Shown piece by piece: positions 474 through 21,932 of a stretch of DNA of 38,410 nucleotides (positions are counted from its first letter, which is position 1; the number at the start of each line of letters is the position of its first letter). Origin of the DNA: Bacteroidaceae bacterium (GTDB lineage: Bacteria > Bacteroidota > Bacteroidia > Bacteroidales > Bacteroidaceae). The DNA lies in contig JAKSLO010000012.1 in the NCBI GenBank assembly GCA_024401185.1, positions 1 to 38,410 of the forward strand. Reading direction: 5' to 3'. The notes under the pieces were generated by a model. It worked only from the letters and a program-made list of their open reading frames with translations, did no database searches and had not been told where the DNA came from. Both the position numbers and the translations under genes were made by a program.

Positions 474-3116
474 ATGAAAAAGTTTCTCTTTTATTTATTC
501 TCGTTGTTTGTGCCCTTTTTTGCCCATGCAACAGAAGAAAACGATTGGCGCACAGGTGACTGGTATGCCAAGTATTACACCAGCGGAATTCAAGGAGACA
601 ACACACCTCCTGCAGAAAACTGGTATGCCACAGATTTCGATGATAGTAGTTGGCCCACTATGCATGGTCCATTATTTGATAACGGAGTCAACACATTTTT
701 CCCAGAAAGTACGACTTTCTTCACAAGAAGAACAATCAACATTAACAACATAGGAGAATATGCAAGTTTCAAAGTACGTTATAATATTGACAACCACGCG
801 AAATTCTACATAAACGGAGTTCTTGTTCGCGATATAGAATACGTCGGAGAAAACTTCTTTGAAATAGATAAAGCATATTTTAAAAAAGGTAAAAACCTAT
901 TTGCTGTATCTATTGAAGATTATTATGGTGGACGTTGTCTTGACTATGGAATCTTTTTAGAATACACCGTAGCAGGCAACACATACCAACGATACGGCAA
1001 TGAACTAACGCTTGTTTCATCCACGAACAAAACACTTACAACAATAGATTTATCTTCTTCTATCATCATTGATGGGCAAGTATGCAATATTACTGAAATT
1101 GCAGATGAGGTGTTCAAAGGATTCAGCAAATTGGAAACAATAAAACTGCCTACTACATTGAAGAAAATCGGCAAAGGGGCGTTTCAAAACTGCATAAAAC
1201 TGACTTCTGTTTCGGGATTAGAGAATATTGAATCCATTGGTGAGTTCGTATTCGCCGGTTGCAAAAACCTGCCCTCTATCTATGCGCCTAAATGTTTATC
1301 CGTTGGAAAACAAACATTCTACAACTGCGTAAAGCTTGCCAAAGTGAATATGGTGAATCTTGAGAAAGCAGATGAGAAAGCATTCCAAAACTGCAAAAAT
1401 CTCCAAGCACTTAACGTGCCTGTACTCTATGATGTCAAGGAAAACACCTTTGATATGGGTACAACAGGAAGCGGCACGATAGGCAACTACACATACGAAA
1501 TACTCGACGTATTTGCTGGCGATTGCGTCATGCAAGGTGCCAAGATTACCAGTTACTTAGGTGAAGAAGGGCAATACATATACTTCCCCAATACCGTGAC
1601 TTATGACGGCACAGAATATCCAGTATTAGCAATAGGAGAAAGACTATTTGAAGACAAGAAAGTCAATGGGGTCAAATTCCCAGAAGGACTAATTTCCATT
1701 GAAGGTGCAGCTTTTCATAACACACAGGGATTTGGTGTTATCAATCTACCCGCTTCTTTGGTGTTTATAAGGGGTGATGAGGTTTTTGAAGGAACCGAAT
1801 TTTCAAAATTAAATTTGCCAAGTGATTCCAAGTTAAGGTACATTGGTCCGCATGCATTTTATTATCACTACCAAAAAGACGAGATAAGTCTCCCAAAATG
1901 CATTGTATGCATTGGCGGAGGTGCTTTTTGGCAAACAAGTATAAGAGTAAACATTCCATTAGATTCAAATTTGCGAATTATAGAAAGTGCAGGATTATGG
2001 GCTCACGGCAACCCGTATGAGGAATTCAAAGTTCCAGAAAATGTGCGCTTTCTTGGGGAAGACTTCGTTTGTTGTGGAGGAACTCTTGATTACACGACAA
2101 ATAGCAAAATAGAAAAGCTGCCAGGCAGATGTTTTGGCAGTTGGGACGGCATGTACACAAAAAAAGTAATTATACCTTCAACAATAACAGAAATAAGTGA
2201 CAATGCATTTGAATGCTCAAGAAACTTAGAGGAGGTCTATAATTACGCAAGTATTCCACAAGCCATTACCGAAAATACTTTTTCCGAATATGGCACTCTT
2301 CATGTCAAGAAGGGTTGTGCAGACATCTATGAAGATACTGAATACTGGAACTACTTTGTCATTGTAGAAGACCTTGACGAAGAAGATGCCATTCACGAAG
2401 AGTGCACTATCGAAGATAGCCAGACAAATTTTGCCAACTACAAAAACACGGGCTACAAGAAGATTATCTACAACCGCACATTCAACAATACAAACTGGCA
2501 GGCATTCTATGTGCCGTTCCCCATGAACCACTCTGATTGGAGCGACAAATTTGAAATAGCAAGAATCAATGATGTTCACCAATGGGACAACAATGATGAC
2601 GGCATTGCAGACAAGACAGAAATGGAATTCTTCAAAGTGAAGAGTGGTAGTATAGCCCCAAATACGCCATACCTCATAAGGGCTAAGAATACTGGTAGGA
2701 AGTCAATAGTGCTCAGCAATTCCACTTTATATACGTCCACAGAGAAAAGGTACAATGTATCAAGTTGGGATACCGATTATAATATCATAGGTACATACAA
2801 GACCATCAACGGCGCAGAGATGGTAGCACAAGGCTACTATGCACTTGGCGGTGGTTCCTTGAAACAGGCAGCATCAGGAAGCAGCAATCTCAATGCGTTC
2901 AGATGGTACATGAGTGTTACAGATAGAAACGGCAACACCAAGAACATCAACGAGGTGAAAGTCTGCGTATTCGACTTTGACGAAGAAGAAACAGGTATGA
3001 CGATACAGTCAGCAGAAAAAGAAAACGACAAAGTGTTTGATCTGAGTGGACGCAGAGTAAACAAAGCTGCGAAAGGTATCTATATAAAGAACGGAAAGAA
3101 AATCGTTATACATTAA
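474..3116 (+). CDS. Secreted BspA-type leucine-rich repeat surface protein
   Basis: 880 residues. A clear signal peptide ends near residue 19 (MKKFLFYLFSLFVPFFAHA). Residues about 20-170 look like a jelly-roll/GH2-type sugar-binding sandwich (WYATDFDDSSWP, FYINGVLV, KGKNLFAV). Residues about 175-620 hold BspA-like LRR_5 repeats of the form IxxIGxxAFxxCxxLxxVxLP (for example LKKIGKGAFQNCIKLTSV). Residues about 660-830 form a module also present in the proteins at 15504 and 16390, with WQAFYVPF, an Asp-rich loop WDNNDDGIADKT and NTPYLI. The last 42 residues are a Prevotella-style tail (FDLSGRRV ... GIYIKNGKKIVIH) resembling type IX secretion sorting tails. BspA-family proteins act in adhesion to host proteins or other bacteria; the ligand here is unknown. 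ATG 474 is chosen because the signal peptide begins exactly there. No promoter consensus is visible in the 76 nt upstream. Confidence 0.88.
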   Translation: MKKFLFYLFSLFVPFFAHATEENDWRTGDWYAKYYTSGIQGDNTPPAENWYATDFDDSSWPTMHGPLFDNGVNTFFPESTTFFTRRTININNIGEYASFKVRYNIDNHAKFYINGVLVRDIEYVGENFFEIDKAYFKKGKNLFAVSIEDYYGGRCLDYGIFLEYTVAGNTYQRYGNELTLVSSTNKTLTTIDLSSSIIIDGQVCNITEIADEVFKGFSKLETIKLPTTLKKIGKGAFQNCIKLTSVSGLENIESIGEFVFAGCKNLPSIYAPKCLSVGKQTFYNCVKLAKVNMVNLEKADEKAFQNCKNLQALNVPVLYDVKENTFDMGTTGSGTIGNYTYEILDVFAGDCVMQGAKITSYLGEEGQYIYFPNTVTYDGTEYPVLAIGERLFEDKKVNGVKFPEGLISIEGAAFHNTQGFGVINLPASLVFIRGDEVFEGTEFSKLNLPSDSKLRYIGPHAFYYHYQKDEISLPKCIVCIGGGAFWQTSIRVNIPLDSNLRIIESAGLWAHGNPYEEFKVPENVRFLGEDFVCCGGTLDYTTNSKIEKLPGRCFGSWDGMYTKKVIIPSTITEISDNAFECSRNLEEVYNYASIPQAITENTFSEYGTLHVKKGCADIYEDTEYWNYFVIVEDLDEEDAIHEECTIEDSQTNFANYKNTGYKKIIYNRTFNNTNWQAFYVPFPMNHSDWSDKFEIARINDVHQWDNNDDGIADKTEMEFFKVKSGSIAPNTPYLIRAKNTGRKSIVLSNSTLYTSTEKRYNVSSWDTDYNIIGTYKTINGAEMVAQGYYALGGGSLKQAASGSSNLNAFRWYMSVTDRNGNTKNINEVKVCVFDFDEEETGMTIQSAEKENDKVFDLSGRRVNKAAKGIYIKNGKKIVIH

Positions 3117-4340: not shown

Positions 4341-4892
4341 ATGAAAATGATACTACCACAAATAAAAGCAAAACTAGAAGAAAGGCTGGGGCAGCAGATT
4401 TGCAGCCCCAGTGATTGCCATGCACTTTCTATAGACATCGAGAAGCGCACTGGACAGCATCTGGGCGTCAACACGATAAAACGAATGCTTGGAATCTTAG
4501 GCGATGAGGTAGAACCACGTACCAGCACACTCAATCTCATAGCTCAATATTTGGGATATGCAAACTGGAACGTGTTAAAGCTGATTGCTGATGGCGAAGG
4601 TAACTCAGATTTTGACAGTATCCCACAAATTATCACATGTGAGCTAAAAGTGGGACAACATGTCATCCTAACCTACGAGCCAAAGCGGAAAGTTACTCTT
4701 AAATACATAGGAGATGGCACATTCTGCGTCACCGAAAGCCTGCTAAGTAAAATGCAGACAGGCGACATAGTACGTACGCAACAATTCATTTTAGGGCAAC
4801 TGCTTTATTGTATCGTACAACGAGATGGGGTCACGCTTGGCAACTTAACAGCAGGAAAAATAGGAGGACTTACTTCTTTGAAATGCAAATGA
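4341..4892 (+). CDS. Helix-turn-helix-like putative regulator paired with the downstream kinase
   Basis: 183 residues. The N-terminal 80 residues are helical and resemble a Bacteroidota DNA-binding-like family often seen near signalling genes: a first helix (KAKLEERLGQQ), then VNTIKRMLGIL where a recognition helix would sit, then STLNLIAQYLGYANW, which is the hallmark STLxxxAxYLGYxxW segment. Residues about 100-183 form a small beta-rich domain (KVGQHVILTYEPKRKVTLKY, LGQLLYCIVQRDGVTLG) with no signal peptide. The stop codon overlaps the kinase start by 4 bp (ATGA at 4889-4892), so the two are translationally coupled. A likely role is a transcription factor or kinase substrate/adaptor acting with that kinase; this is inferred from the overlap and fold only. 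Alternative: a cytosolic protein-binding domain that does not bind DNA. Confidence 0.65.
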   Translation: MKMILPQIKAKLEERLGQQICSPSDCHALSIDIEKRTGQHLGVNTIKRMLGILGDEVEPRTSTLNLIAQYLGYANWNVLKLIADGEGNSDFDSIPQIITCELKVGQHVILTYEPKRKVTLKYIGDGTFCVTESLLSKMQTGDIVRTQQFILGQLLYCIVQRDGVTLGNLTAGKIGGLTSLKCK

Positions 4893-8997: not shown

Positions 8998-11900
8998 ATG
9001 ACAAAGATAGAGATTAGTGCGGAATACATCAAGACGGTCAACTACGCCCTTGTAAATGGCAGAATACCCATCTGCAAGCTATTGGAGCTGACAAACAGCA
9101 CCGAAGCGGCCGTCAGCGGGCTGCAGGTGATGTGCACCGGCGAATACATCAAGCCCTGTGTGAGCAACCTGACAGAGACGCTGGAAGCAGGGCAAACCAT
9201 GCAGGTGCCCAACATGGACATACTGCTGGATGTACAGGAGATGCTGACCCTGCCCGAACACACCACCACAAGTTTCAAGATACGCGTGATGGAGCAAGGC
9301 GACTGCGTGGGCGAGCAAGACTTTGAACTGGAGTTGGTGCACGACCACTATGACCTGAACATGATAAGCAACGGCAAGCGCGAACTGACCAAGATGGACA
9401 TCTGGGAGCGTAAGCTGCTCGACTTCTCATTGCGCAATTCTCTGCTCAACCTCTATCTGCGTACCCGTGCCATACAGTTCATCTCGTTCGACGTAAGCAA
9501 GATAGAAGACCACCTGGCAAGCGGAGAGGAATACTGCATCATGCCCAAGCCCGAGGTGGACTTCAAGATAAACAGCGAGGAGCGACTGATACACTCGAAG
9601 AAGCTGGCAGAGTCGCTTCACGACCTGATAAGCGACGGCATAGAGCATCACCGTCTGCATACCTACCAAACGGAAACAGAGACGAAGAATACGCTGAAGA
9701 ACATCTACCGCGGAGCACGCAATGCCATAGAGGAGACGGGTGCCAACTCACTCTTCCTCTCCATAGGTACTCTGCGCTGGTACGAGGAAGGACAAAGCGA
9801 CACGCCACGCTACGCCCCCGTCATCCTGCTGCCCGTGGAGATGGTGTACAAGAAGGGGCAGTACTTCATACGTACACGCGACGAGGAGACCAACCTCAAC
9901 ATCACCCTGATGGAGTTTCTGCGCCAGAACTACAACATACGCGTGGAGAATCTCGACACGCTGCCCAAGGATGAGCATGGCATCGACGTGAACCTGATAT
10001 TCACCATACTACGCGAGTCGCTGAAGGAACATCCCACATGGGACATCGAGGAGGAGTGCATACTCGGCACCTTCTCGTTCAGCAAGTTCCTGATGTGGAA
10101 TGACGTGCACAACCACCGAGAGGAGATGATGCAGAGCCAGGTGGTAAGCAGCTTGGTAGAGAACCGACTGACCTGGACGCCCGACCCCGTAAACGTCAAC
10201 CTCAAGGAGATGGACAGCGTGACACCTCCCACCGAACTGGCGTTGCCTGTAGCCGTGGATTCGTCTCAGATGGCAGCCGTCATTGAGGCGGGCAAGGGCC
10301 ACTCGTTTATTCTATACGGCCCTCCCGGAACCGGTAAGTCGCAAACCATCACCAACCTCATCGCCAACGCCTTGTTCCAAGGCAAGCGCGTACTCTTTGT
10401 GGCCGAGAAGATGGCCGCCCTGAGTGTGGTACAGAGTCGTCTGGCCAAGATAGGGCTTGACCCCTTCTGCCTGGAGATGCACTCGAACAAGGTAACCAAG
10501 AAGCACATCCTGGAGCAGTTCAGCAAGGCTTTGGGCGTGACCCACATCGTGTCGCCGGCAGAATACAAAGACAAGGCCGAAAAGATATTCGCCCTGCGCA
10601 AGGAACTCATCGAGTACCTCAAGGCGCTTCATAACGTAGATGGCAACGACAACCTGTCGCTTTACGACTGCATCAAGCACTATGAAGCCATCGATGCCGA
10701 GCCAATGGCAACCTTTGCTCCCAATGCCAAGCTCGACGCAGCGCTGGTGCAGCATGGATTGGACGAACTGGAGGACATACTGAACGGAAAGCTGGACACC
10801 GTGACAAAACTGGTGGGACAGCCTTCGGAAAGTCCGCTGAAGGGACTCGTGCTGGAACAAAGCAACTTTGCTCCCGACGAGTTGGTGGCCAAGTTGCAGA
10901 AGGCAAAGGCTATAGTAAGCGGAAGTCGCAAGCAAGCTGCCGACCTGCAACAGGTAAAAAGCCTGCGCGCCGCCCTTCTGCGCGACAACAGCGAGGCACT
11001 TCTGAAACAAAATGCCAAGGCGCTCTACGACGAATGGAGAAGCGTTAAGACCAAGTGGTTCCTTCCACGCTTCTTTGCCAAGAAGAACTACCTCAACAAA
11101 CTGCGTGAGTTTAACAAGCTCATCACCGATGCTGATGTTGACAAGACGCTCGACAACCTCATGCAGTATCAGGAGAAGCATAAGTCAATCGAAGAGCTGC
11201 GCCTTATCCTGTCAACCCACCTTGGCATTGACACACCCTCGGACGTAATGCCCGAAGACTATCTGCTGCAAGATGCAGAGGAGAAGATGGAGCGCTGGAT
11301 TGCTAACAAGGACAAGATGCGCGACTGGCTGCATTACTGCAACTACAACAGCCTTCTCAAGGAGATGGGTATGGAATGTGTGCAGAAGGCGCTGGAGGCA
11401 GAGAACTGTGAGCCAGACGCTATCAGGAAATCGTTCTTCAAGGCACTCTTCAAGCATAAGGCTGAGCGAAAGATGGACAAGGCACCTCTGCTGACCACTT
11501 TCGAGGGCATGATATTCGACGAGAAAGTGAACAGCTACAAGCGACTCACGGAGGAGTTCCAGATGCTTACCCAGAAAGAGCTTTATGCCCGACTGGCGGC
11601 ACGCATACCCCGTGTGGGCGAAAACCTTGACAGCAGCAGCGAGATAGGTCTGCTGAACCGCAACATCTCGAATGGCGGCCGTGGCATGTCTCTGCGCGAA
11701 CTTCTGAAGCAGATACCCACGTTGCTACCCCGCATCTGTCCCTGCATGCTGATGAGCCCTATGAGCGTGGCACAGTATCTCGACCTGTCACAGGAGAAGT
11801 TCGACCTCGTGGTCTTCGACGAAGCATCGCAGATGCCTACCAGCGAGGCAGTAGGCGCCATCGCCCGTGGCAAGGCTCTCATCGTGGTGGGTGACCCGAA

Positions 11901-13584
11901 GCAGATGCCTCCCACCAGCTTCTTCTCGTCAACCAACGTGGATGAGGAAGAAGCCAACATCGATGATATGGAAAGCATCCTGGAAGACTGTCGCACGCTG
12001 GAGATGCCATCATTGCAGCTCAACTGGCACTACCGTTCACGCCATGAGAGTCTGATTGCCTTCTCAAACCGTGAATACTACGACGGCTCGCTCATCACCT
12101 TCCCATCGGTGGACGACCAAAAGACGAAGGTAAGCTACATCCCCGTGGATGGATACTATGACAAGGGAGGCAAGCGTTCGAACCGTGCTGAGGCAGAGGC
12201 CATCGTCAACGAGATAGAACGTCGACTGAAGGATGAGAAGCTGCGCCAGCAGAGCATTGGCGTCATCGCCTTCAGCGTGGTGCAGCAGGCACTCATCGAA
12301 GACCTTCTTGTGGACAGAATGGACAACGACAAGACGTTGCACGATGCCGCTGACGAGATGTATGAACCCATCTTCATCAAGAACCTGGAGAATGCCCAGG
12401 GTGATGAGCGCGACGTCATACTGTTCAGCATAGGCTATGGCCCTAACAAAGAGGGCGTTGTGTCTATGAACTTCGGTCCGCTGAACAACGTGGGTGGCGA
12501 ACGACGTCTGAATGTGGCAGTAAGCCGTGCACGCTGCGAGATGATGGTATTCTCAACTCTCAAGGCATCGCAGATTGACCTGCGTCGCAGCAAGGCAAAA
12601 GGCGTGGAAGGGCTGAAGCACTTCCTTGAGTTTGCCCAGACACAAACCCTGTCAGGAAACGCCGCATCGGTACAACAAGATAAAAAGTCGATGGTGGCAG
12701 AGAAGATTGCCGAGGCTTTGCAACAACGTGGATATAAGACACAAACCTACATCGGACGCTCTATGTTTAAGGTTGATGTGGCCATCTGCGACAAGCAGAA
12801 CCCAGAGGTGTATAGTATGGGACTCCTGCTCGACGGCGAAGGCTATCGTGATACGCAAACCACCCGCGACCGCGAAATCGTGCAGCCATCCGTCCTGACT
12901 GGTTTGAAATGGAAGGTAATGCGCATCTGGAGCGTAGATTGGTTTAACAACCCTGAGCGTGTCATCAACCGCATCGTGGAACAGCTGGAGGCAGAACCTG
13001 CTAAAGAGAAGCCTGCACAGAAGCTGCATTTTGACATCTCGAAAGAGAAGGTAGAGGAAACGGTATCGAAGGCCAAGCCCTACATTGAGTTCAAAGCCAA
13101 CGCTGCCAGCAAGGCCAAGGTGCAGAAAGAGAGCATCTGCAAGGACATCGTGGCTGCCGAGCAACCCATCTCGATGATGCAGCTATGCCGCAAGGTGTGT
13201 GCACTGCGTGAGATGCAACGCGTAACACCCACCCTGCAAAGCGAGGTGGCCAACTATTGCGCCAACAACCTCTACACGCAGGCCGATCGTCAAGGACAAG
13301 TGGTGTGGCTCGACCAAGCCAGCAGCATGAACTATCCCTGGTATCGTCCTGACACGATGCGCGACATTGCCGACATACCCATGATTGAGATTAAGAATGC
13401 CGTGCTGGAGGCCATCACCGAACAATTCAGCATAGCTACCGACAACCTCTCTCTCATTGCCGTCAAGAAGTTAGGCTTCACCCGTCGTGGCAACAATGTG
13501 GACGCGGCCTTCCGCATAGCCGTGGATGAATTGGTAAAGGAAGGACTCGTGAAGGAGGAAGATGGTAAGATGAAAACGGTTTAG
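8998..13584 (+). CDS. DUF4011 / superfamily 1 helicase / Vsr-like nuclease / DUF3320 protein
   Basis: 1528 residues with the full architecture of a large DUF4011 helicase. The DUF4011 region begins near residue 130 (WERKLLDFSLRNSLLNLYLR). Helicase motif I is LYGPPGTGKSQTITNLI (about 439-455), motif II VVFDEASQMP (about 940), motif III VVGDPKQMPP, then WHYRSRHESLIAFSN, QGDERDVILFS (about 1134) and motif VI GERRLNVAVSRAR (about 1167). Residues about 1235-1335 match the MTES_1575/Vsr-like restriction-endonuclease fold (FKVDVAICD, LLLDGEGYRDTQTTRDRE, WKVMRIWSVDW). The C-terminus is DUF3320-like (about 1460-1520, VDAAFRIAVDELVKEGLV). Together these suggest ATP-driven nucleic-acid translocation coupled to cleavage. 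I recall this architecture among tested anti-phage genes (from memory). It starts 6 nt after the ABC exporter stop. Alternative: a DNA repair enzyme. Confidence 0.9.
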   Translation: MTKIEISAEYIKTVNYALVNGRIPICKLLELTNSTEAAVSGLQVMCTGEYIKPCVSNLTETLEAGQTMQVPNMDILLDVQEMLTLPEHTTTSFKIRVMEQGDCVGEQDFELELVHDHYDLNMISNGKRELTKMDIWERKLLDFSLRNSLLNLYLRTRAIQFISFDVSKIEDHLASGEEYCIMPKPEVDFKINSEERLIHSKKLAESLHDLISDGIEHHRLHTYQTETETKNTLKNIYRGARNAIEETGANSLFLSIGTLRWYEEGQSDTPRYAPVILLPVEMVYKKGQYFIRTRDEETNLNITLMEFLRQNYNIRVENLDTLPKDEHGIDVNLIFTILRESLKEHPTWDIEEECILGTFSFSKFLMWNDVHNHREEMMQSQVVSSLVENRLTWTPDPVNVNLKEMDSVTPPTELALPVAVDSSQMAAVIEAGKGHSFILYGPPGTGKSQTITNLIANALFQGKRVLFVAEKMAALSVVQSRLAKIGLDPFCLEMHSNKVTKKHILEQFSKALGVTHIVSPAEYKDKAEKIFALRKELIEYLKALHNVDGNDNLSLYDCIKHYEAIDAEPMATFAPNAKLDAALVQHGLDELEDILNGKLDTVTKLVGQPSESPLKGLVLEQSNFAPDELVAKLQKAKAIVSGSRKQAADLQQVKSLRAALLRDNSEALLKQNAKALYDEWRSVKTKWFLPRFFAKKNYLNKLREFNKLITDADVDKTLDNLMQYQEKHKSIEELRLILSTHLGIDTPSDVMPEDYLLQDAEEKMERWIANKDKMRDWLHYCNYNSLLKEMGMECVQKALEAENCEPDAIRKSFFKALFKHKAERKMDKAPLLTTFEGMIFDEKVNSYKRLTEEFQMLTQKELYARLAARIPRVGENLDSSSEIGLLNRNISNGGRGMSLRELLKQIPTLLPRICPCMLMSPMSVAQYLDLSQEKFDLVVFDEASQMPTSEAVGAIARGKALIVVGDPKQMPPTSFFSSTNVDEEEANIDDMESILEDCRTLEMPSLQLNWHYRSRHESLIAFSNREYYDGSLITFPSVDDQKTKVSYIPVDGYYDKGGKRSNRAEAEAIVNEIERRLKDEKLRQQSIGVIAFSVVQQALIEDLLVDRMDNDKTLHDAADEMYEPIFIKNLENAQGDERDVILFSIGYGPNKEGVVSMNFGPLNNVGGERRLNVAVSRARCEMMVFSTLKASQIDLRRSKAKGVEGLKHFLEFAQTQTLSGNAASVQQDKKSMVAEKIAEALQQRGYKTQTYIGRSMFKVDVAICDKQNPEVYSMGLLLDGEGYRDTQTTRDREIVQPSVLTGLKWKVMRIWSVDWFNNPERVINRIVEQLEAEPAKEKPAQKLHFDISKEKVEETVSKAKPYIEFKANAASKAKVQKESICKDIVAAEQPISMMQLCRKVCALREMQRVTPTLQSEVANYCANNLYTQADRQGQVVWLDQASSMNYPWYRPDTMRDIADIPMIEIKNAVLEAITEQFSIATDNLSLIAVKKLGFTRRGNNVDAAFRIAVDELVKEGLVKEEDGKMKTV

Positions 13585-13861: not shown

Positions 13862-14884
13862 ATGGAAGAGTTGGATTGGTCAAATCTCGGTTTTGGCTAT
13901 CGCAAGACCGACTATAACGTAAGATGTTACTATCGCAATGGTGCGTGGGGTGAGATTGAAGTATGTAGCGAGGAGACAATTCCCATGCACATGGCAGCCA
14001 CCTGTCTGCACTATGGACAGGAGAGTTTTGAGGGTTTGAAGGCATACCGTTGCCCCGACGGCAAGGTACGTGTGTTCCGTCCCGATGAAAATGCAGCTCG
14101 TATGCAGAGCACCTCACGTGGCATCCTGATGCCCGAGATGCCTACCGACAAGTTCATTGAAATGGTTGAGAAGGTAGTACGTCTCAACGAGCGTTTCATC
14201 CCCCCCTATGAGAGTGGTGCAACCCTGTATATCCGTCCCTTGATGGTGGGTACTGGTGCTCAGGTAGGTGTACATCCTGCCAACGAATACCTGTTCGTCA
14301 TCTTCGTAACACCCGTAGGTCCTTACTTCAAGGGTGGTTTCTCTGCCAATCCCTACGTCATTATCCGTGAGTTCGACCGCTCTGCTCCTTTAGGTACTGG
14401 TATCTACAAGGTAGGTGGCAACTATGCTGCCTCTCTGCAAGCTAACAAGAAAGCTCATGACATGGGTTACGCTTGCGAGTTCTACCTCGATGCCAAGGAA
14501 AAGAAGTACATCGATGAGGCTGGTGCAGCCAACTTCTTCGGTATCAAGAACAATACATACATCACTCCTAAGTCAAGTTCTATCTTGCCCTCTATCACCA
14601 ATAAGTCATTGATGCAGTTGGCAGAGGATCTGGGCATCAAGGTGGAGCGCCGTGCCATTCCTGAGGATGAGCTCGAAACATTCGAGGAGGCTGGTGCTTG
14701 CGGTACCGCAGCCGTAATCTCTCCCATCTGCCGCATTGATGATGTAGAGACAGGCAAGAGCTATGTCTTCGGAGATGGAAAAAATCCTGGTCCTGTATCA
14801 GAGAAGTTGTTCAACAAGCTTCGTGGCATCCAGTATGGCATTGAGCCCGACATCCATGGATGGACACGCGTTGTCATTGAATAA
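13862..14884 (+). CDS. ilvE: Branched-chain amino acid aminotransferase (type II)
   Basis: 340 residues, PLP-dependent class IV aminotransferase. It interconverts leucine, isoleucine and valine with their 2-oxo acids using glutamate/2-oxoglutarate in the cytosol. The PLP-binding lysine is K183 in GIYKVGGNYAASL. Other family landmarks are LHYGQESFEGLKAYR near residue 51, TLYIRPLMVGTG (substrate pocket), YLDAKEKKYIDEAGAANFFG (about 208-227) and ACGTAAVISP (about 280). Length and motif order match the large type II (BCAT/IlvE II) group rather than the shorter type I. It has its own promoter (13653-13684) and terminator (14910-14946), so it is monocistronic. Codon choice (ggt, cgt, aag, gct) looks like that of a well-expressed gene, similar to gdhA at the right end. 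Confidence 0.95.
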   Translation: MEELDWSNLGFGYRKTDYNVRCYYRNGAWGEIEVCSEETIPMHMAATCLHYGQESFEGLKAYRCPDGKVRVFRPDENAARMQSTSRGILMPEMPTDKFIEMVEKVVRLNERFIPPYESGATLYIRPLMVGTGAQVGVHPANEYLFVIFVTPVGPYFKGGFSANPYVIIREFDRSAPLGTGIYKVGGNYAASLQANKKAHDMGYACEFYLDAKEKKYIDEAGAANFFGIKNNTYITPKSSSILPSITNKSLMQLAEDLGIKVERRAIPEDELETFEEAGACGTAAVISPICRIDDVETGKSYVFGDGKNPGPVSEKLFNKLRGIQYGIEPDIHGWTRVVIE

Positions 14885-14909
14885 GAAACAGCATCATACA
14901 ATACATACA

Positions 14910-14946
14910 AGCGGACGTAACCCCAAAAAGTTACGCCCGCTTTTCT
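14910..14946 (+). terminator. Rho-independent terminator of ilvE
   Basis: AGCGGACGTAAC (14910-14921) pairs with GTTACGCCCGCT (14930-14941) over 12 bp with one mismatch and an 8-nt loop, running into TTTTCTGTT. It lies 26 nt after the ilvE stop. Confidence 0.85.
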
Positions 14947-14983
14947 GTTAAAAGGTATCGCATACGTAAGGGGGACAAAGAGA

Positions 14984-15085
14984 TTTGGAAGTTAAAGGAG
15001 TTTAAGACGAATAGGACGAATGTATTAGCCCATTGCCAGGCATGTCATATCGTCCTTTAACTTCTTCAACTCCAGAAACTCCAAA
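14984..15085. repeat. About 100-bp imperfect palindromic element
   Basis: The left part (TTTGGAAGTTAAAGGAGTTT followed by AAGACGA...GGACGA) is an imperfect inverted copy of the right part (TCGTCCTTTAACTTCTTCAA then CTCC...AACTCCAAA). The longest perfect pairings are GAAGTTAAAGG (14988-14998) with CCTTTAACTTC (15054-15064) and GGACGA (15014-15019) with TCGTCC (15050-15055). The centre is ATTAGCCCATTGCCAGG. There is no coding potential. It looks like a miniature dispersed palindrome of the intergenic type common in Prevotella. The rest of the gap 14947-15234 shows nothing else convincing. Confidence 0.6.
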
Positions 15086-15234
15086 CTTCTTGGCACATAT
15101 CACAAAGTGCCTCAGTTTTATCAATTTGCACATAAAACATGTAATAAATCGAACTTTTAAGGGTAACTAATGTTAAAAACATGTTAAACATCACATTTTT
15201 ATGTGTTAAAAAGATACAATTCATAAATTTTTTG

Positions 15235-15243
15235 TACCTTTGC
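15235..15243 (+). promoter_or_regulatory. Bacteroidales -7 box (TACCTTTGC)
   Basis: TACCTTTGC matches TAnnTTTG; an AT-rich tract precedes it, but no proper -33 box is visible at 19-20 nt. It would give a leader of about 255 nt before ATG 15504. Confidence 0.6.
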
Positions 15244-15503
15244 AGCGGTATTAAGAAAGGATGTATCAAAATTACAATATACGATCTTCTTTACGAAAGG
15301 ATAATCAACCTCATAAGAGGTTTAGAAACGGATAGCGAAATTACATTGATCGTATAAAACAAAAAAATTATTAGGTATTAGGGACAGTACTTTCAAAGCC
15401 AAGAATTTCGCCGAGCATCGGCCTTTGCCTCAGTTCATGTAATGATACAGGGCAAAAGAAGGTGTGAAGCAAGAATTAGTAAATTTAATTTAACTAAGGA
15501 TAT
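15244..15503 (+). promoter_or_regulatory. Long structured 5' leader of the secreted-protein cluster
   Basis: There is no ORF of note in this 260-nt leader. It can fold: TATACGATC (15278-15286) pairs with GATCGTATA (15348-15356) and encloses a hairpin AACCTC-ATAA-GAGGTT (15307-15322); a second hairpin is GCCGA-GCA-TCGGC (15410-15422). AAGGA at 15496-15500 is a possible ribosome-binding site just before ATG 15504. It does not match any riboswitch class I can recognise. Confidence 0.45.
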
Positions 15504-16325
15504 ATGAAACTTAAAGGTAAAATGTTGGATGTAATCGTCATGGCAAGTGCTATGATGGCTCTGCTCCCCACCAAGGCATCGGCAGAGATTGAAAATTTGA
15601 AAAACCTTACTATCACTGATGCAACCGCCTACGAAAACGTCGTAGACAGCAAAGTAGAGAAATTCACCTATCGCCGTTCAATCAACGCTAACGAGTGGAG
15701 TTCATGGTTCACCCCCTTCTCTATCGACGTCAACATACTTACCAAAAATGATATTGAGGTATCTGCCATCGAGAATATCCGCAACTACGACGATGACGAG
15801 GATGGAGAAATCGATCGTACCGTGCTTGAGGTCATCAAGGTTAACGGTGGAAACCTCAACGCCAACACACCTTATATTATATACTCCAGCAAGACTGCTA
15901 TGGTGGAGATTGAACTCGAAAACGTAGATTTGAAGTCGGCTGACAATACCAACGACGTAGTCATTGAGTCTGCCACAACAACCTATACTTTCCGCGGCAC
16001 ATACAGCACTATGTATCCCGAAGATACAAAATACATCGTCTCAGAGAATGCCATCACAGAGGCAAGAAAGATTCAGCCCCAGCGTTGGTACATGGAGGTG
16101 GAGGGCAGAGAGAATCCCTACATCGAAACTCCTGCTGCCATGGTTCGTGAGTTCTCGCTCCAGCTTGTAGGTGAGGAGAACCTTGAGACCGGCATCCGCA
16201 CCATCTATCCCCAGTCTCAGCAGAAGACAGTCAGCGCTAATGGCATCTTCGACCTGAGCGGACGCAAAATGAACACAACCCAGAAGGGCATCAACATTAT
16301 CAACGGAAGAAAGGTTCTTAAGTAA
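15504..16325 (+). CDS. Secreted protein consisting of the shared Asp-loop module and C-terminal tail
   Basis: 273 residues. The signal peptide MKLKGKMLDVIVMASAMMAL continues to KASA near residue 28. From about residue 50 to 225 the protein is one module, YRRSINANEWSSWFTPF ... NYDDDEDGEIDRTVLEV ... NTPYIIY ... FRGTYS ... RWYME. It matches the C-terminal parts of the proteins at 474 and 16390. The Asp-rich segment (DDDEDGEID) looks like a D-x-D-x-D-G-x-x-D calcium loop. The last 45 residues are the tail (ETGIRTIYP ... GIFDLSGRKM ... KGINIINGRKVLK). This is the minimal member of the group: export signal, module, tail. It is first in a probable operon with 16390 (64-nt gap). Function unknown; surface or secreted location is inferred. 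Confidence 0.75.
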   Translation: MKLKGKMLDVIVMASAMMALLPTKASAEIENLKNLTITDATAYENVVDSKVEKFTYRRSINANEWSSWFTPFSIDVNILTKNDIEVSAIENIRNYDDDEDGEIDRTVLEVIKVNGGNLNANTPYIIYSSKTAMVEIELENVDLKSADNTNDVVIESATTTYTFRGTYSTMYPEDTKYIVSENAITEARKIQPQRWYMEVEGRENPYIETPAAMVREFSLQLVGEENLETGIRTIYPQSQQKTVSANGIFDLSGRKMNTTQKGINIINGRKVLK

Positions 16326-16389
16326 TCAAAATCTTCAAAATAGGTATTAGGTAAGAAACATTAAATAAGGAAACAAGATTATTACGATT

Positions 16390-18636
16390 ATGAACAACAT
16401 ACATTTTTCAGTTAAAAATCTAATGGCAGTCATCCTGATGATGATTGCAATAGCAATGCCTCAGAACGCTTCGGCAGCATGTAGTCATACTGCCACAGCA
16501 GAAAACGCAACATACGATTGGGCTGGTTCAAATGTAAAAGTAGGTAAGTGCGTAGCTAAGCTTTATTGCAGCAAGTGCAAGGCTCTGCTCGAAACCGTAA
16601 CGCTCACCGTAAGTTCAAAGTCATACATTGAACCTACCTGTGAAACAGAGGATGAGCAGATCTGGAAGGCAACCGGTAAGAGTACAAAATACCCCAGCAT
16701 CACCTATTATTCTGAGAGTACTACATATACTTGGGGAAAGAAAGGTCATGGTACAAAAGGTTACAACGCTGTGTACAGCTGGACCGGCAACTATATGGAT
16801 GCCCATTGCTTTATGCAATTGACCTGCCTTGACTGCCGTCAAATGGTGTGCAACATAGCCGCAAACACAGTTGAGAAGGATCCAAATGGTCACAAAGAGC
16901 CTACATGTACACTCGAAGGCAAAGAAACATGGGTTGCAACATTTGATATTGACATGAAGGGTTATGTTACATATAAAAGTCAAAACTCCAAGGCCTTTGC
17001 AACTCCTTGTAACGGACACGGTAACACATTGAACTACACCCCTACCTATACTTGGTCCACCAACGCCAGCAACCCCACTTGTAAGCTGACGCTTATGTGT
17101 AACGATTGTCACAACAATGTGTTGGAAAATTATCCCATGACAGTCGTCGAGGCAGAGGCTTCACGCGTTGAGCCCGGTTGCGAGAAAGCAGGTCAAGCTG
17201 TGTATAACGCTAAGTACACATTCACTGAGAGAGTGTACGAAAGCAGAAGATACGCTGCTAAATCAGACAGAACCTATGAGTTGGCTGCATGTGGTCACGG
17301 ACACACAGAAGGTTATACTCCCACTTTCAGTTGGACAGGAAACGAGATTGAGCCTCTCTGTGACTTTACACTTAAGTGTAACGATTGTAGCAAGGTAGTG
17401 GTAAATGCACAAAAGGTGACTCCCGCATTGGTAGAGGGTAGCCGCGTTGAACCCACCTGTGAGGACTTAGGTTCTATTGATTTCAGCGTAACTGGAAACT
17501 ATAGCACAACCAAGGACGCCTCTTTCAAGGAGACAAACAAGCACACATTCAGCATCAGACGTAAGGGACATGGCTTGAAGGGTTACAAGGCTGACTATAC
17601 ATGGGCAGAGAACTATGAGGATCGTGCTTGCTCACTCACAGTAGTTTGCTTGGCTTGTAACAAGAAGGTCATCGACAATAAGTCACTCGAACTCGTTGAG
17701 GATGAGGAAGAGCATGTAGACGCTACCTGCGAGGAGGACGGTCACGCTAAGTTCAGCGTAAGCGGCGAGTTCATCGAACCTGGGTTCAGCAGAGCTAAAT
17801 ATAGTGGTACAAGCAGCAAGGAGTATGTAATCCTCGCATTTGGTCACGATATCGACGAGAACAGCCAGTGCACACATTGTGGTACCTCATTCAAGGATCC
17901 TGAAATCTTTGAGTTGAACGAGGATGAGGTTTACGAAGCAGTAGCTTCACACGTAGTAGATGGCATGATTTACAACCGCAGCTTCAATGGTGGCATCTGG
18001 AACACTTGGTACGTTCCCTTCGAGACTTCGGTTGAGAAACTGGCTGAGAGCTATGTCAAGGCTGCCTACATTGAGAGCGTTCACAACTATGACGATGACA
18101 AGGATGGCACTTACGATCGCACCGTGCTCAACGTTATGACTCTCAGCAATGGTAACATCCATGCCGGTACTCCCTACCTGGTAATGGCTGATTGCAACCT
18201 CGACAAGATTGAGTTGGGTAAAACCACAATGGCTGCAGCAGATGACGTTAAGAACATTCGCATGAAGTCAGCTTCTCACACCTTCGACATCATTGGTTCT
18301 TACTGTGGTATTGATGCCAGCGAGATGACAGCAAATACAAACTTCACATTGGACGAGGAGGGTATGATGAACGTAGCCGAGGACGCGCTTGCACCCTATC
18401 GCTGGGCAATCAAGCAAACCAACGGTCAGATTATCGCTGACGAGGCAAACAACGTGAAGGCTCTGCAGATTCTTGTTATCGGTGAAGAGGATCAGGAAAC
18501 CGGCATTCGCACCATCTATCCTGCAAATGAGCAGAAGACATACAACGCCAATGGCATCTTCGACCTCAACGGACGCAAGTTGGACGTTGCACGTAAGGGT
18601 GTGAACATCGTCAACGGCAAGAAGATTGTTAAGTAA
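16390..18636 (+). CDS. Secreted five-repeat cysteine-rich surface protein with Asp-loop module
   Basis: 748 residues. The signal peptide ends near MPQNASA (residue 29). Five repeats of about 91 residues (31-118, 119-207, 208-301, 302-392, 393-485) each read GHG..GY...Y.W......C.....C..C......V.....EPTCE..G. The cysteines are regular: C54-C60-C63-C84, C140-C146-C149-C173, C231-C237-C240-C264, C324-C330-C333-C357 and C414-C420-C423-C447, four per repeat. This could be a zinc site or two disulphides. Similar W-W/CxxC/ATCTEDG repeats are common in Firmicutes cell-surface proteins. A sixth CTHCG motif lies near 494. Residues about 525-705 are the shared Asp-loop module (YNRSFNGGIWNTWYVPF, NYDDDKDGTYDRT), and 705-748 the tail (GIFDLNGRKL ... 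NIVNGKKIVK). No lipobox. Likely an adhesin or surface-layer-like protein; ligand unknown. Confidence 0.82.
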   Translation: MNNIHFSVKNLMAVILMMIAIAMPQNASAACSHTATAENATYDWAGSNVKVGKCVAKLYCSKCKALLETVTLTVSSKSYIEPTCETEDEQIWKATGKSTKYPSITYYSESTTYTWGKKGHGTKGYNAVYSWTGNYMDAHCFMQLTCLDCRQMVCNIAANTVEKDPNGHKEPTCTLEGKETWVATFDIDMKGYVTYKSQNSKAFATPCNGHGNTLNYTPTYTWSTNASNPTCKLTLMCNDCHNNVLENYPMTVVEAEASRVEPGCEKAGQAVYNAKYTFTERVYESRRYAAKSDRTYELAACGHGHTEGYTPTFSWTGNEIEPLCDFTLKCNDCSKVVVNAQKVTPALVEGSRVEPTCEDLGSIDFSVTGNYSTTKDASFKETNKHTFSIRRKGHGLKGYKADYTWAENYEDRACSLTVVCLACNKKVIDNKSLELVEDEEEHVDATCEEDGHAKFSVSGEFIEPGFSRAKYSGTSSKEYVILAFGHDIDENSQCTHCGTSFKDPEIFELNEDEVYEAVASHVVDGMIYNRSFNGGIWNTWYVPFETSVEKLAESYVKAAYIESVHNYDDDKDGTYDRTVLNVMTLSNGNIHAGTPYLVMADCNLDKIELGKTTMAAADDVKNIRMKSASHTFDIIGSYCGIDASEMTANTNFTLDEEGMMNVAEDALAPYRWAIKQTNGQIIADEANNVKALQILVIGEEDQETGIRTIYPANEQKTYNANGIFDLNGRKLDVARKGVNIVNGKKIVK

Positions 18637-18700
18637 AGATAGACAAAGCTTTACAGATAGATTTTAAGGTATCAGGGAAATTAGAAGTGTAATATAAGAG

Positions 18701-18766
18701 AATAACTTGGCATAATTCGGGGCAAACAACAATGCCGGAAAAACAATTGTGCCAAGTTATTTTTAT
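18701..18766 (+). terminator. Strong stem-loop with T tract between 16390 and 18801 genes
   Basis: AATAACTTGGCATAATT (18701-18717) pairs with AATTGTGCCAAGTTATT (18745-18761) over 17 bp with a single T-G wobble. The loop contains a smaller GGCA/TGCC hairpin, and TTTTTATT follows. It ends only 35 nt before the next start codon, and no TAnnTTTG box is seen in between, so it may work as an attenuator instead of a full stop. Confidence 0.75.
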
Positions 18767-18800
18767 TACATATAGGTAACAACCTACAAAGAAAATAACT

Positions 18801-20723
18801 ATGAACAGAATTCAGAATTCAATTAAGGGTTGGTGGGCAGCCATGCTGCTCGTGGTAACCATGGTCATGCCTCAAAACGCAACGGCACAAACCAAAAAGA
18901 TAGGCACAATAGATGAATTAAAAGCATTCATCGAAGCAGTTAACAACAACGTAAAAACCAATGAACAATTCAATGCACAACTTACAGCAGACATCGATGC
19001 TACTGAGTTGGGCAACGATGTTGTAATAGGCACTAAGGATAACCCCTATCAGGGTACTTTTGACGGAAAGAACTACACCATTACCGTCAACATCAACATG
19101 AGCGGTAATGACAATATCGGACTATTCGGTTATATAAGTAATAGCAGCATTGAAAACCTTGTTGTGAGTGGAGCTATTACTGGTAAGAGCAATGTAGGTG
19201 CTATTGTGGGTTACAGCAAGACAGATGCTGGCAAGGAGACTGTCATCAGAAACTGTGCTACCAATGCCACCATCAATGGTAGCACAAATGTAGGTGGCAT
19301 CATTGGTGAAATGACAGGTGTATTACCAGGTAACGTCAGCAGCGGTGCCAACGAAAAAGGACATGTGACAATAGACCGTTGTGCGTTCAGCGGCAACGTA
19401 GAAGGTACTTCGAGCACGGCAGGCATCGTGGGACGCATATTGGAGAAGAACACCACTACGGATGCTAATGTTACCATCTCCAACTGTCTGACTACTGGTA
19501 CCATTTCGAGCAAAAATGGTGGTAGCGCAGGCATTGTAGCAATCATCAACAGCTCAGAAGTTGGTACAGGCATAAATGCATTAGCTGCCATCAGTAGCTG
19601 TCTTAGCCTTTCAGAAACAGACTATGCCATTGCTTCCAACATAGCCTATGCTAACGTGGAGAACTGCTACTACGAACAGGAGAAGAGCAATGGTCTTTTT
19701 GGAAACAATGCATCCACAACAAAATGCGACACAAACAGCGGGGCTAAGTCAACTACCGAAATCACAAGCGGTGAGATTGCATATATCCTCAACAATGGTG
19801 TAACAGATGGTTCACAAGCTTGGTATCAAGCTATCGGTAGTGACAAAGCCCCATCATTAGTAGCATTTAAAGGTGGTACTGTCTTTGCAGAAGGTGAAGG
19901 CTTTGGTAACTTCTGCGACATGCATAGTGCAGATGACGACTCTACTTGTCCCGTGTGTGGTACTGAACTTGCCGCTATTGTAAAGACAACCGACAAAAAC
20001 TATGGTTTTGAAACTATTCAGGAAGCAGTAAACGCAGTTGTCAATACCACAGATGAAGGTATCATAACCTTGAAATTGTTAAGCGATGGTATAATACAGA
20101 ACACCATCAGCCTCACCAAAGGTGAGGTGGTAATTGACTTGAACGGATTCAACATCACCAATGAACAGCCCAGTCAGGATGCACTTTGCATTAACGGCGC
20201 ACAAGTTACTATCGTGGACAATTCTAAGGCCAAGAATGGTAAGTTAATCGCCGCATATGGTAATGCCATCACATTTACTGATGGAAAATTGACTATCAAT
20301 GAGGGCGAATTCAACACTAAAAAAGAAGGTTCATACGGATTGGAAATCTCTGCAACAGAGATTGATAACAACATTATCCTGCGTGGTGGTAACTACAGTA
20401 GCATTTACAACGCAGCAAACTGGAGTGATATCAATCTGGTTGGAAATGTACTTTATGACGCAAGCGAAAAATACCTCGTTAGCATAGATTTGGAAGAAAC
20501 TACAAACGAGATCGACCATAAGGTTTGCATTCTGTTGCCTTTCAATTATGGTGATGCCAATAACGATGAGAAATATACCATCTCAGACATTATCTTGCTG
20601 GTTAAGGCATTGCAGGCAGAGGAAGTTGTTTACGTGCATGCCTTGGATGCAAACCGCGATGGTAAGATCGACATGGATGACATTGAGGCAATGCGTGAAA
20701 ACGTACTGAACACCACATACTAA
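18801..20723 (+). CDS. Secreted GLUG-repeat / beta-helix protein with C-terminal dockerin-like domain
   Basis: 640 residues. The signal peptide ends MPQNATAQ (residue 30), echoing MPQNASA of the preceding protein. Residues about 85-270 hold GLUG-type repeats typical of right-handed helices (NIGLFGYISNSSIENLVVSG, SNVGAIVGYS, TNVGGIIGEMTG). A short Cys/His segment (CDMHSADDDSTCPVCGTELA, from about 372) leads into a second beta-helix (FETIQEAVNAV, GEVVIDLNGFNI, KLTINEGEFN), an arrangement familiar from Clostridia surface proteins. Residues about 583-640 are dockerin-like with two Ca loops, GDANNDEKYTISD and DANRDGKIDMDD. There is no DLSGR tail. Probable surface or secreted polysaccharide-associated protein; the dockerin-like part suggests docking to a cohesin-like partner such as those encoded at 26833-31511, but this is inference. 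Confidence 0.82.
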   Translation: MNRIQNSIKGWWAAMLLVVTMVMPQNATAQTKKIGTIDELKAFIEAVNNNVKTNEQFNAQLTADIDATELGNDVVIGTKDNPYQGTFDGKNYTITVNINMSGNDNIGLFGYISNSSIENLVVSGAITGKSNVGAIVGYSKTDAGKETVIRNCATNATINGSTNVGGIIGEMTGVLPGNVSSGANEKGHVTIDRCAFSGNVEGTSSTAGIVGRILEKNTTTDANVTISNCLTTGTISSKNGGSAGIVAIINSSEVGTGINALAAISSCLSLSETDYAIASNIAYANVENCYYEQEKSNGLFGNNASTTKCDTNSGAKSTTEITSGEIAYILNNGVTDGSQAWYQAIGSDKAPSLVAFKGGTVFAEGEGFGNFCDMHSADDDSTCPVCGTELAAIVKTTDKNYGFETIQEAVNAVVNTTDEGIITLKLLSDGIIQNTISLTKGEVVIDLNGFNITNEQPSQDALCINGAQVTIVDNSKAKNGKLIAAYGNAITFTDGKLTINEGEFNTKKEGSYGLEISATEIDNNIILRGGNYSSIYNAANWSDINLVGNVLYDASEKYLVSIDLEETTNEIDHKVCILLPFNYGDANNDEKYTISDIILLVKALQAEEVVYVHALDANRDGKIDMDDIEAMRENVLNTTY

Positions 20724-20803
20724 GCTTCGATGGAAAAGTAAATCCATAATCAATTACCCCAAAAGGTAGGATTTAATTAGAATCAAAAAAAATACACAAT
20801 AAA

Positions 20804-20840
20804 AGAGAGCGTGTCAGATGTGCTTACTGACACGCTCTCT
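20804..20840. terminator. Bidirectional terminator between convergent genes
   Basis: A 14-bp perfect stem, AGAGAGCGTGTCAG (20804-20817) and CTGACACGCTCTCT (20827-20840), with a 9-nt loop. It lies between the + gene ending at 20723 and the - gene ending at 20871. A-runs on the left give a T tract for the minus-strand transcript; the plus side is less T-rich. Confidence 0.8.
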
Positions 20841-20870
20841 CTGCATTTATCATGAACTACTGATTGCAAA

Positions 20871-21932
20871 TCAGGGTCTAACCATACCTATCTTAACGGG
20901 TATTCCGTCAGGGCTGTCAAAGGTACCGATGGCATACTGCTTACCATTCTGCTCCCAGAATGATGTGATACTGAGCGAACCTGCACCACTGGCAGTAATC
21001 TTTCCATTCTGCCACTTACCCATGAAGATGTCTTCTGACTCACCTTCTTCATTGATAACTTCGCCAGAAGAGAGGAAACGAGTGGTGTGACGCTTGATGC
21101 CAAACTTCAGATTGTCCTTAGTACCCGACACATTTACATTTGCAAAGCCATACGCCTTCACATCATATTTATTATTGGGATCCTGATAGAAAAGAGCTTT
21201 CCATGAACCCGAAATACTACCAAGGTCATTTAGCGCTTTCACATTCTTAGGCATACCACTCTTGGATGCTCCATTGATAAACCAACCCTGGAAATCTGAC
21301 TCTTTAGGAGTGTCCAGAGTGCTCAACGATGATGTGGAAGATTCTGCCACAGGTTCATTTTCCGCCACAGCATCAGTTTTAGAAATCTCCTTTACTTCTT
21401 CCTTTTGAGCGCTACTACCTTTCTCGGCATCCATTTGTTCCGTTTTGGGCGTATAAGTCAATTCTACGTCATCCGTCTTCTTATCAAAAACGAAAAGCCA
21501 TAAAGCTGCACCCACTCCTGCCAGAATCAATACTGACAGGATGATGATGAGCGGCAAGCGACTTGTCTTACGCGTATCACTCTCGAATGGTGACCGAAAC
21601 TCTTGTTGTGGCTGATTTACGATAGGAGGAATCGCTACTGGCTCTGGTGTGGGTTGTGGAGCTGGAGCTTCCACTACAGGCTCTGGTTGAGGCACAACAG
21701 GAGGAACTGCTACTGGCTCAGGTGTGGGTTGTGGAGCAGGTGCTTCTACTACAGGCTCTGGTTGAGGCACAACAGGAGGAACTGCCACTGGCTCAGGTGT
21801 GGGTTGTGGAGCTGGAGCTTCCACTACAGGTTCGGGCTGAGGTTGAGAAGGCATCACTACAGCTTGGCCACAGTTTCTGCAAAACTTGGCACCCAAAGGT
21901 ATTTCAGAACCACAAAACTTGCAAAAAGGCAT
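20871..21932 (-). CDS. Zinc-ribbon, proline-rich, single-TM membrane protein
   Basis: 353 residues. The N-terminal zinc ribbon has C4-x2-C7 and C18-x2-C21 (FCKFCGSEIPLGAKFCRNCG style). Residues 33-107 are three 25-residue repeats (PEPVVEAPAPQPTPEPVAVP type) encoded by a 75-bp tandem repeat. One membrane helix spans about 127-149 (LPLIIILSVLILAGVGAALW), followed by an acidic Ser/Glu-rich linker. The C-terminal domain (about 205-353) is beta-rich (FQGWFINGASKSG, GSWKALFYQDP, GKWQNGKITASGAGSLSI, YAIGTFDSPDGIPVKIG) and unknown to me. Expected topology: zinc ribbon and proline arm in the cytosol, C-terminal domain outside. Such zinc-ribbon membrane proteins are common but uncharacterised. Its promoter is at 22088-22119; it converges on the terminator at 20804. 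Confidence 0.78.
   Translation of the reverse strand: MPFCKFCGSEIPLGAKFCRNCGQAVVMPSQPQPEPVVEAPAPQPTPEPVAVPPVVPQPEPVVEAPAPQPTPEPVAVPPVVPQPEPVVEAPAPQPTPEPVAIPPIVNQPQQEFRSPFESDTRKTSRLPLIIILSVLILAGVGAALWLFVFDKKTDDVELTYTPKTEQMDAEKGSSAQKEEVKEISKTDAVAENEPVAESSTSSLSTLDTPKESDFQGWFINGASKSGMPKNVKALNDLGSISGSWKALFYQDPNNKYDVKAYGFANVNVSGTKDNLKFGIKRHTTRFLSSGEVINEEGESEDIFMGKWQNGKITASGAGSLSITSFWEQNGKQYAIGTFDSPDGIPVKIGMVRP
21612..21836 (-). repeat. 3 x 75 bp in-frame tandem repeat
   Basis: Three consecutive 75-bp units inside the zinc-ribbon gene encode 25-residue Pro/Glu/Val/Ala units. The units are nearly identical at DNA level; the third diverges at its end (AIPPIVNQ instead of AVPPVVPQ). Copy-number change would keep the frame and only alter the length of the proline-rich arm. 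Confidence 0.9.

Follow-up and report, generated by a model that had tools for sequence, protein, structure and literature searches.

An unnamed domain ahead of predicted short T9SS signals in proteins with unlike N-terminal parts from a Bacteroidaceae bacterium

Gingipain R, a cargo protein of the type IX secretion system (T9SS), carries an Ig-like domain directly before its CTD. Shorter signals have been described in Prevotella intermedia (Ye et al. 2025, PMC11969387); according to the available part of that paper, no other species of the phylum has been reported to carry long and short CTDs side by side. According to the same text, the short CTDs have the consensus cut PT/GI, with Ile as its most conserved residue; Gly is absolutely conserved in motifs B and D, B also has a Tyr, D takes the form GxY or GxN, and motif E is basic. 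For Asp-rich loops, the closest description is that of Dx[DN]xDG as a calcium-loop pattern in many folds (Rigden et al. 2011, PMC3123361); the accessible part of that work favors convergence for the motif, so that such a loop is no sign of kinship.

The window analyzed here is the whole stretch of 38,410 nucleotides from Bacteroidaceae bacterium assembly GCA_024401185.1 (contig JAKSLO010000012.1, positions 1 to 38,410 of the forward strand), probably a relative of Prevotella. Three of its proteins, P0001 to P0003, end in a shared region that consists of a module of ~175 residues and a separate tail, the last 40–44 residues to the C-terminus. These features, and those of a fourth protein, are as follows.

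474..3116 (+): P0001, secreted protein; signal peptide (by eye), BspA-type LRRs (LRR_5, 1.3e-47), module, and predicted short T9SS CTD
2457..2975 (+): module in P0001 (profile A2, 239 bits)
2586..2612 (+): Dx[DN]xDGxxD loop of P0001, DNNDDGIAD (from sequence)
2994..3113 (+): predicted short T9SS CTD of P0001, 40 aa from the predicted T/GM cut, GxY type (tail profile 7.5e-19; motifs as in the available part of PMC11969387)
15504..16325 (+): P0002; signal peptide (by eye), module, and predicted short CTD, with cargo almost absent
15654..16178 (+): module in P0002 (profile A2, 181 bits)
15789..15815 (+): Dx[DN]xDGxxD loop of P0002, DDDEDGEID (from sequence)
16191..16322 (+): predicted short T9SS CTD of P0002, 44 aa from the predicted T/GI cut, GxN type (tail profile 2.9e-17; motifs as in the available part of PMC11969387)
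16390..18636 (+): P0003; signal peptide (by eye), Cys-rich repeats, module, and predicted short CTD; no Pfam match above cut-off
17959..18489 (+): module in P0003 (profile A2, 178 bits)
18091..18117 (+): Dx[DN]xDGxxD loop of P0003, DDDKDGTYD (from sequence)
18502..18633 (+): predicted short T9SS CTD of P0003, 44 aa from the predicted T/GI cut, GxN type (tail profile 2.5e-15; motifs as in the available part of PMC11969387)
28908..31511 (-): P0005; LRR/DUF285, dockerin-like domain, and predicted short CTD at 28911–29018; module undetectable

The module and its copies

A sequence-only reading of this DNA had proposed that three proteins with entirely different N-terminal parts share a C-terminal segment. 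The three ORFs and the segment lie where it had placed them (ORF list, sequence comparison), and BLASTP matched P0002 to P0003 at 36% over 237 aa (E 2e-52), P0001 to P0003 at 31% over 225 aa (E 8e-27), and P0001 to P0002 at 29% over 247 aa (E 3e-24). The N-terminal parts are unlike, as it had stated: the next-best pair matches reach only E 4.2, 0.57, and 0.40, and the sequence ahead of the module is thus not detectably related. The segment had been ended too early, since similarity extends to the stop codons, and what it delimited is most likely the domain just ahead of a predicted cleavage site. The near-identity in DNA that had been pointed out between 15783–15805 and 18085–18107 is present (21 of 23 bases the same); because the residues there are near-identical too, it is by itself no proof of recent exchange.

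A profile search of the contigs found ten full modules (156–254 bits) and one partial match in this genome, and with ten full copies the notion of a C-terminal domain behind differing N-terminal parts holds. Relatives were fetched by the module alone from four close rows, an 18-row alignment being too diverse for the contig scan, and the set is thereby biased to loop-bearing copies. It comprised 80 loci with record titles of Prevotellaceae, Bacteroidaceae, other Bacteroidales, or uncultured organisms, rumen and gut being frequent sources. In these loci, 87 distinct ORFs carried the module, and a stop was in view for 85 of them. Across a wider, redundant set of ORFs with a stop in view, many of them cut N-terminally by the locus end, the last module copy ended ≤110 residues from the C-terminus in 127/127. 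Two copies occurred in one of these ORFs, and further copies could lie beyond the loci.

Neither in the three whole proteins nor in the 79 rows of alignment A5 did any Pfam-A or NCBIfam family match the module above its curated cut-off, so the earlier remark that it was not recognized as a named family survived a search for known domains: in the libraries searched, the sequences form an unnamed domain family. The best sub-threshold family was HVO_2922 (E 0.0012, 1/79 rows; in P0003 E 0.007 and 16.4 bits against a cut-off of 90). EF-hand models, as expected from the loop, were the commonest weak Pfam matches (EF-hand_6 in 19/79 rows, best 0.0075) within the 25 of 48 families among the matches listed for these rows. 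A PDB sequence search returned nothing outside the tail part at E < 0.1.

The cargo ahead of the module is varied. Of 70 ORFs with a stop at either end, 55 were scanned; within the 25 of 39 families among the matches listed, LRR_5 occurred in 34, LRR_8 in 26, Big_2 in 8, and peptidase M6 in 2, with single cases of at least GH20, peptidase C10, CotH, and RCC1. The copies in this genome follow LRR; LRR with Big_2 and MBG_2; DUF285 (two neighbors); Big_2; Cys-rich sequence; in one case, cargo with a weak MBG_3 match; and, in the rest, sequence that matched nothing. In a tree of 98 modules, P0001 grouped (98/86) with three copies of its own genome on other contigs, whose cargo is unlike (LRR; LRR with Big_2; a weak MBG_3 match only). 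P0002 and P0003 sit on long branches with no settled placement in this tree, whose bootstrap had not converged. The pattern looks like that of one C-terminal unit shuffled among secreted proteins. A crude Chou-Fasman count, which took in the tail as well as the module, assigned 63 columns to strand, 25 to helix, and 153 to neither, a weak hint of a beta domain.

In another family (genome G095, SprA present), a remote copy of the module, lacking the loop, follows GH43 and laminin-G-like domains. The C-terminus behind it matched neither tail profile and gave sub-cut-off matches to DUF6383 (E 0.00065) and Por_Secre_tail (0.0037), and pairing of the module with T9SS signals may accordingly predate the short tail. 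Locus L167, searched without filters, scored 27.9 bits with the A2 profile and 15.5 with the A5 module profile and matched neither tail profile; with default filters, neither module nor tail appeared.

The Asp-rich loop that had been noted in the segment is real. Dx[DN]xDG occurs in 9/10 module copies of this genome, with Asp at position 9 also in 8/10, and A5 shows D1 in 77, D/N3 in 77, D5 in 75, G6 in 74, and D9 in 74 of the 79 rows, counts that are biased, since the loop fell within one of the two patterns used for searching. Position 14 is Glu in 55/79 rows. Residue 12 is mixed (the five commonest of 79 being V 18, E 16, I 10, Y 10, and T 8), which leaves no regular acidic residue at the position where an EF-hand has one. 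As a defining feature of the domain, the loop was rejected: a loopless sister group, A7, aligns with the module over 164 columns (hhalign, probability 98.9), its rows having been chosen through a module-profile match and A2 itself containing four loopless rows. Absent from this remotely related group, the loop is an accessory feature. With its D1, D/N3, D5, G6 pattern, it is a candidate calcium-binding loop.

The tail, its pairing with the module, and the T9SS

Judged by its sequence, the tail is most likely a short T9SS CTD, and its members are new ones of an already known kind. The suggested link of the segment to secretion or attachment is thereby retained, with the signal most likely in the 40–44 residues after the segment and not in the segment itself. 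A profile built from ten rows, three of which are the tails of P0001, P0002, and P0003, found 44 tails in this genome at E ≤ 1e-4; with the threshold relaxed to E ≤ 1, the total was 57. All of the 30 best-scoring loci of the 57 end ≤2 residues from a stop, and the three window proteins likewise carry the tail at their extreme C-terminus. The predicted cut, counted by position over the 79 rows of A5, has T in 61, G in 51, and I in 62; it reads T/GM in P0001 and T/GI in P0002 and P0003. Motif B has Gly in 79/79 rows and an aromatic residue, Tyr in 56 rows and Phe in 20 (P0001–P0003 all have Phe), motif D has Gly in 79/79 followed by Tyr in 57 or Asn in 8, and motif E has Lys in 76.

Against the PDB, the tail profile matched 4kca (1.5e-9) and 7jvi (4.6e-7), then the gingipain R2 chain 5hfs (E 0.013), a chain of 72 residues that we take to be the gingipain CTD. 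An unrelated reductase (0.037) ranked between gingipain chains, the further ones lying at 0.14 to 0.53. In 4kca_A, an arabinanase, and 7jvi_A, a beta-helix protein, the short tail is found near the C-termini. The standard model responds poorly to these sequences: neither TIGR04183 nor PF18962 matched P0001–P0003 at E ≤ 1; even at that threshold, TIGR04183 matched 9/79 rows of A5 (best 0.0017), and PF18962 matched 5/79 (best 0.026), in each case below the curated cut-off. Above its cut-off, TIGR04183 picks out four sites in this genome; one contains an inner stop and is a tail-profile match too. At E ≤ 1 the model rings in 13/14 control genomes as well.

Although they were fetched without the tail, 82/85 distinct module ORFs with a stop in view carry one, 41–62 residues past the module (median 48), which puts the end of the module near the predicted PorU cut. 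The three without a match are L091, which is cut inside the module, L086, which has a divergent tail, and L125, with tail-like sequence in another frame downstream. The wider redundant set has a tail match in 121/127 module ORFs, the other misses being the C139 and C94 copies of this genome, where 8/10 modules have a match at E ≤ 1 and C139 and C94:25981 end in divergent, tail-like sequence (by eye) below threshold. Seen from the tail, the association is looser. Ahead of the 30 best tails of this genome lay a full module in 7 cases, a weak remote match in 5 (E 7e-8 to 0.003; best reversed-sequence control 2.5), and neither in 18, two of these 18 having only about 55 residues in view. Module and tail as one inseparable unit was rejected on the grounds of these 18.

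Searches for the T9SS components SprA and PorU found both in this genome. SprA scored 2634 bits and rang in 0/14 control genomes; PorU scored 967 bits and rang in 2/14, in none above cut-off. When 99 genomes were drawn from 98 families across the order, our own included, 94 had SprA, 8 the tail, and 2 the module, indicating that short tail and module are mostly features of the genome's own family. Within that family, 62 of 101 genomes (our own, the source of the tail profile, counted among them) held two or more tails. All 62 had SprA or PorU above cut-off, 61 of them SprA, and sub-cut-off PorU matches (G174, G191, G203) were not counted as T9SS. Thirty genomes with neither component included none with two tails and two with one tail each; nine T9SS genomes had 0 or 1 tail. 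The Fisher p for this co-occurrence, 5e-18, ignores ancestry within the one family and is no real probability. Counted by hand at the genus level, a genome with two or more tails occurred in 16/19 genera with SprA versus 0/11 without. Because short tails are widespread in the sampled family, T9SS cargo missed by the standard model can now be listed; in this genome, 44 tails (E ≤ 1e-4) compare with 4 TIGR04183 places.

Some genomes depart from this pattern. G147, of the same genus, has 62 short tails, PorU at 1017 bits, and no SprA match though it is listed as 100% complete; a gap or a divergent translocon may account for this. The genera g105, g108, and g115 of the same family have T9SS genes, but their 8 sampled genomes showed no short tail at E ≤ 1e-4; they may use long CTDs only.

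Within the window, P0005 is a fourth predicted T9SS cargo protein. Its dockerin-like region is another calcium-type domain inside a tail-bearing protein. A C-terminal dockerin-like domain (5.6e-6) also marks P0004 (18801–20723, +), which adjoins P0003 and has a similar signal peptide by eye; no T9SS-like tail was found in its sequence. The Cys-rich part of P0003 (16390–17950, +) consists of CxxC-pattern repeats, five and a partial sixth by eye, with no Pfam match above cut-off. Scans of 14850–20900 gave no signal for promoters (13 versus 11.9 expected) or terminators (4 versus 4.8 expected), and P0002 had no match to phage records at E ≤ 1e-5. Elsewhere, 8998–13584 (+) encodes a protein with DUF4011, helicase, and REase_MTES_1575 parts that matches the PADLOC candidate defense model PDC-S37 (1089 bits) and Hhe (510 bits); a protein-kinase gene (4808–6526) lies upstream of it.

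Role of the module and competing readings

We consider it fairly likely that the module is the membrane-near foot of T9SS cargo, probably calcium-stabilized, which is left at the mature C-terminus after PorU cleavage. This proposal joins what the sequences display directly (module, tail, their order and spacing, T9SS genes, and co-occurrence) to a route, cleavage, and attachment that we infer from the available part of the published P. intermedia work (PMC11969387); calcium binding, fold, and foot role are our interpretation of the module. A signal peptide would take each cargo protein across the inner membrane by Sec export, and the short CTD of 40–44 residues would direct it through SprA to the surface, where PorU would cut at T/GI and the new C-terminus would be joined to surface polysaccharide. 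As the last domain before the PorU cut, the module would lie nearest the membrane in the mature protein. There it would act as a stable structural foot, probably beta-rich and in one subfamily calcium-stabilized, that keeps unrelated cargo off the surface and the cleavage linker accessible. We prefer a structural foot because of the module's fixed place, mostly single copy, and indifference to cargo; with a short T9SS signal right behind it, it probably serves as the surface-fixing foot for varied proteins. An unnamed domain that recurs in relatives behind adhesin-like and enzyme cargo would thus receive a function-linked place.

In an improbable further form of this idea, the module would be a dedicated T9SS anchor that folds only on extracellular calcium, its folding pulling cargo from the SprA pore, stopping it from slipping back, and presenting the T/GI linker to PorU. 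If true, a calcium-folding module would be both folding ratchet and docking foot common to unrelated surface proteins. We know of no report of such a part for the T9SS.

The same place at the mature C-terminal end could suit an adhesin-type or carbohydrate-binding domain whose binding site has calcium within or beside it. Since P0002 contains little besides signal peptide, module, and tail, the module may act alone, and among its cargo partners are many adhesin-like or glycan-active ones. The calcium-dependent binding module CBM60 matches 3/79 rows (best E 0.039), although such matches are at chance level. The fixed C-terminal place throughout the redundant set of 127 ORFs, with two copies in only one of them, also speaks against binding, a role we judge rather unlikely. 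Under another reading, the module belongs to the secretion signal, as an extended CTD read with the short tail by PorV, PorZ, or the translocon. In its favor are the near-obligate pairing with the tail (82/85) and the narrow spacing, and the C-terminus after the remote copy in G095 is of another type, matching DUF6383 and Por_Secre_tail below threshold. The five weak remote matches ahead of further tails in this genome suggest that the module is commoner than full copies indicate, and they make the foot slightly less and a signal role slightly more likely. Yet 18/30 of the best tails here have no detectable module ahead, which weakens a signal role, and in the available text on P. intermedia (PMC11969387) short CTDs are cleaved and glycosylated with no such domain named. 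On balance, a share in the signal seems unlikely.

Mere descent of neighboring paralogues, with no shuffled domain, is the reading to which we give very little credence. P0002 and P0003 are adjacent and the most alike, and the two DUF285 copies, also neighbors, group together. However, P0001 groups (98/86) with copies on other contigs that have unlike cargo, the window proteins show no alignment in their N-terminal parts, and P0002 and P0003 occupy long branches without a settled place in a tree whose bootstrap had not converged.

Comparison with known systems

The Ig-like domain of gingipain R is a beta domain right before a T9SS CTD, the place that the probably beta-rich module takes ahead of its predicted CTD; the module part of the profiles found no gingipain in the PDB at E ≤ 10. 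With the T9SS type A sorting domain (TIGR04183, PF18962; RgpB CTD), the tail has motifs B, D, and E in common at about half the length, and TIGR04183 and the tail profile coincide at one site in this genome, C116. The module's loop shares Dx[DN]xDG and Asp 9 with the calcium loops of EF-hands, integrin-like blades, and others (available part of PMC3123361). In EF-hands position 12 is acidic, whereas in the module it is not regularly so, and the flanks are strand-like by a crude propensity count.

The closest counterpart of the tail is the short CTD of P. intermedia, as set out in the accessible text of Ye et al. 2025 (PMC11969387). Both lie at the extreme C-terminus, at 43–55 aa there (40–51 in a first set) versus 40–44 aa here, and they have in common the T/GI cut with Ile at +2, a motif B with Gly and a basic residue, GxY or GxN in motif D, and a basic motif E. 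Phe is common in motif B here (20/79 rows), whereas that text gives Tyr, and cleavage and glycosylation, demonstrated for P. intermedia, are predicted for the tails described here. A wider report of short CTDs was absent among the literature matches listed, which were titles and abstract beginnings, mostly from outside subscription journals. P. intermedia stands alone in that part of PMC11969387, whereas two or more short tails occur in 62/101 sampled genomes of one family here, which extends predicted short T9SS signals beyond one oral species.
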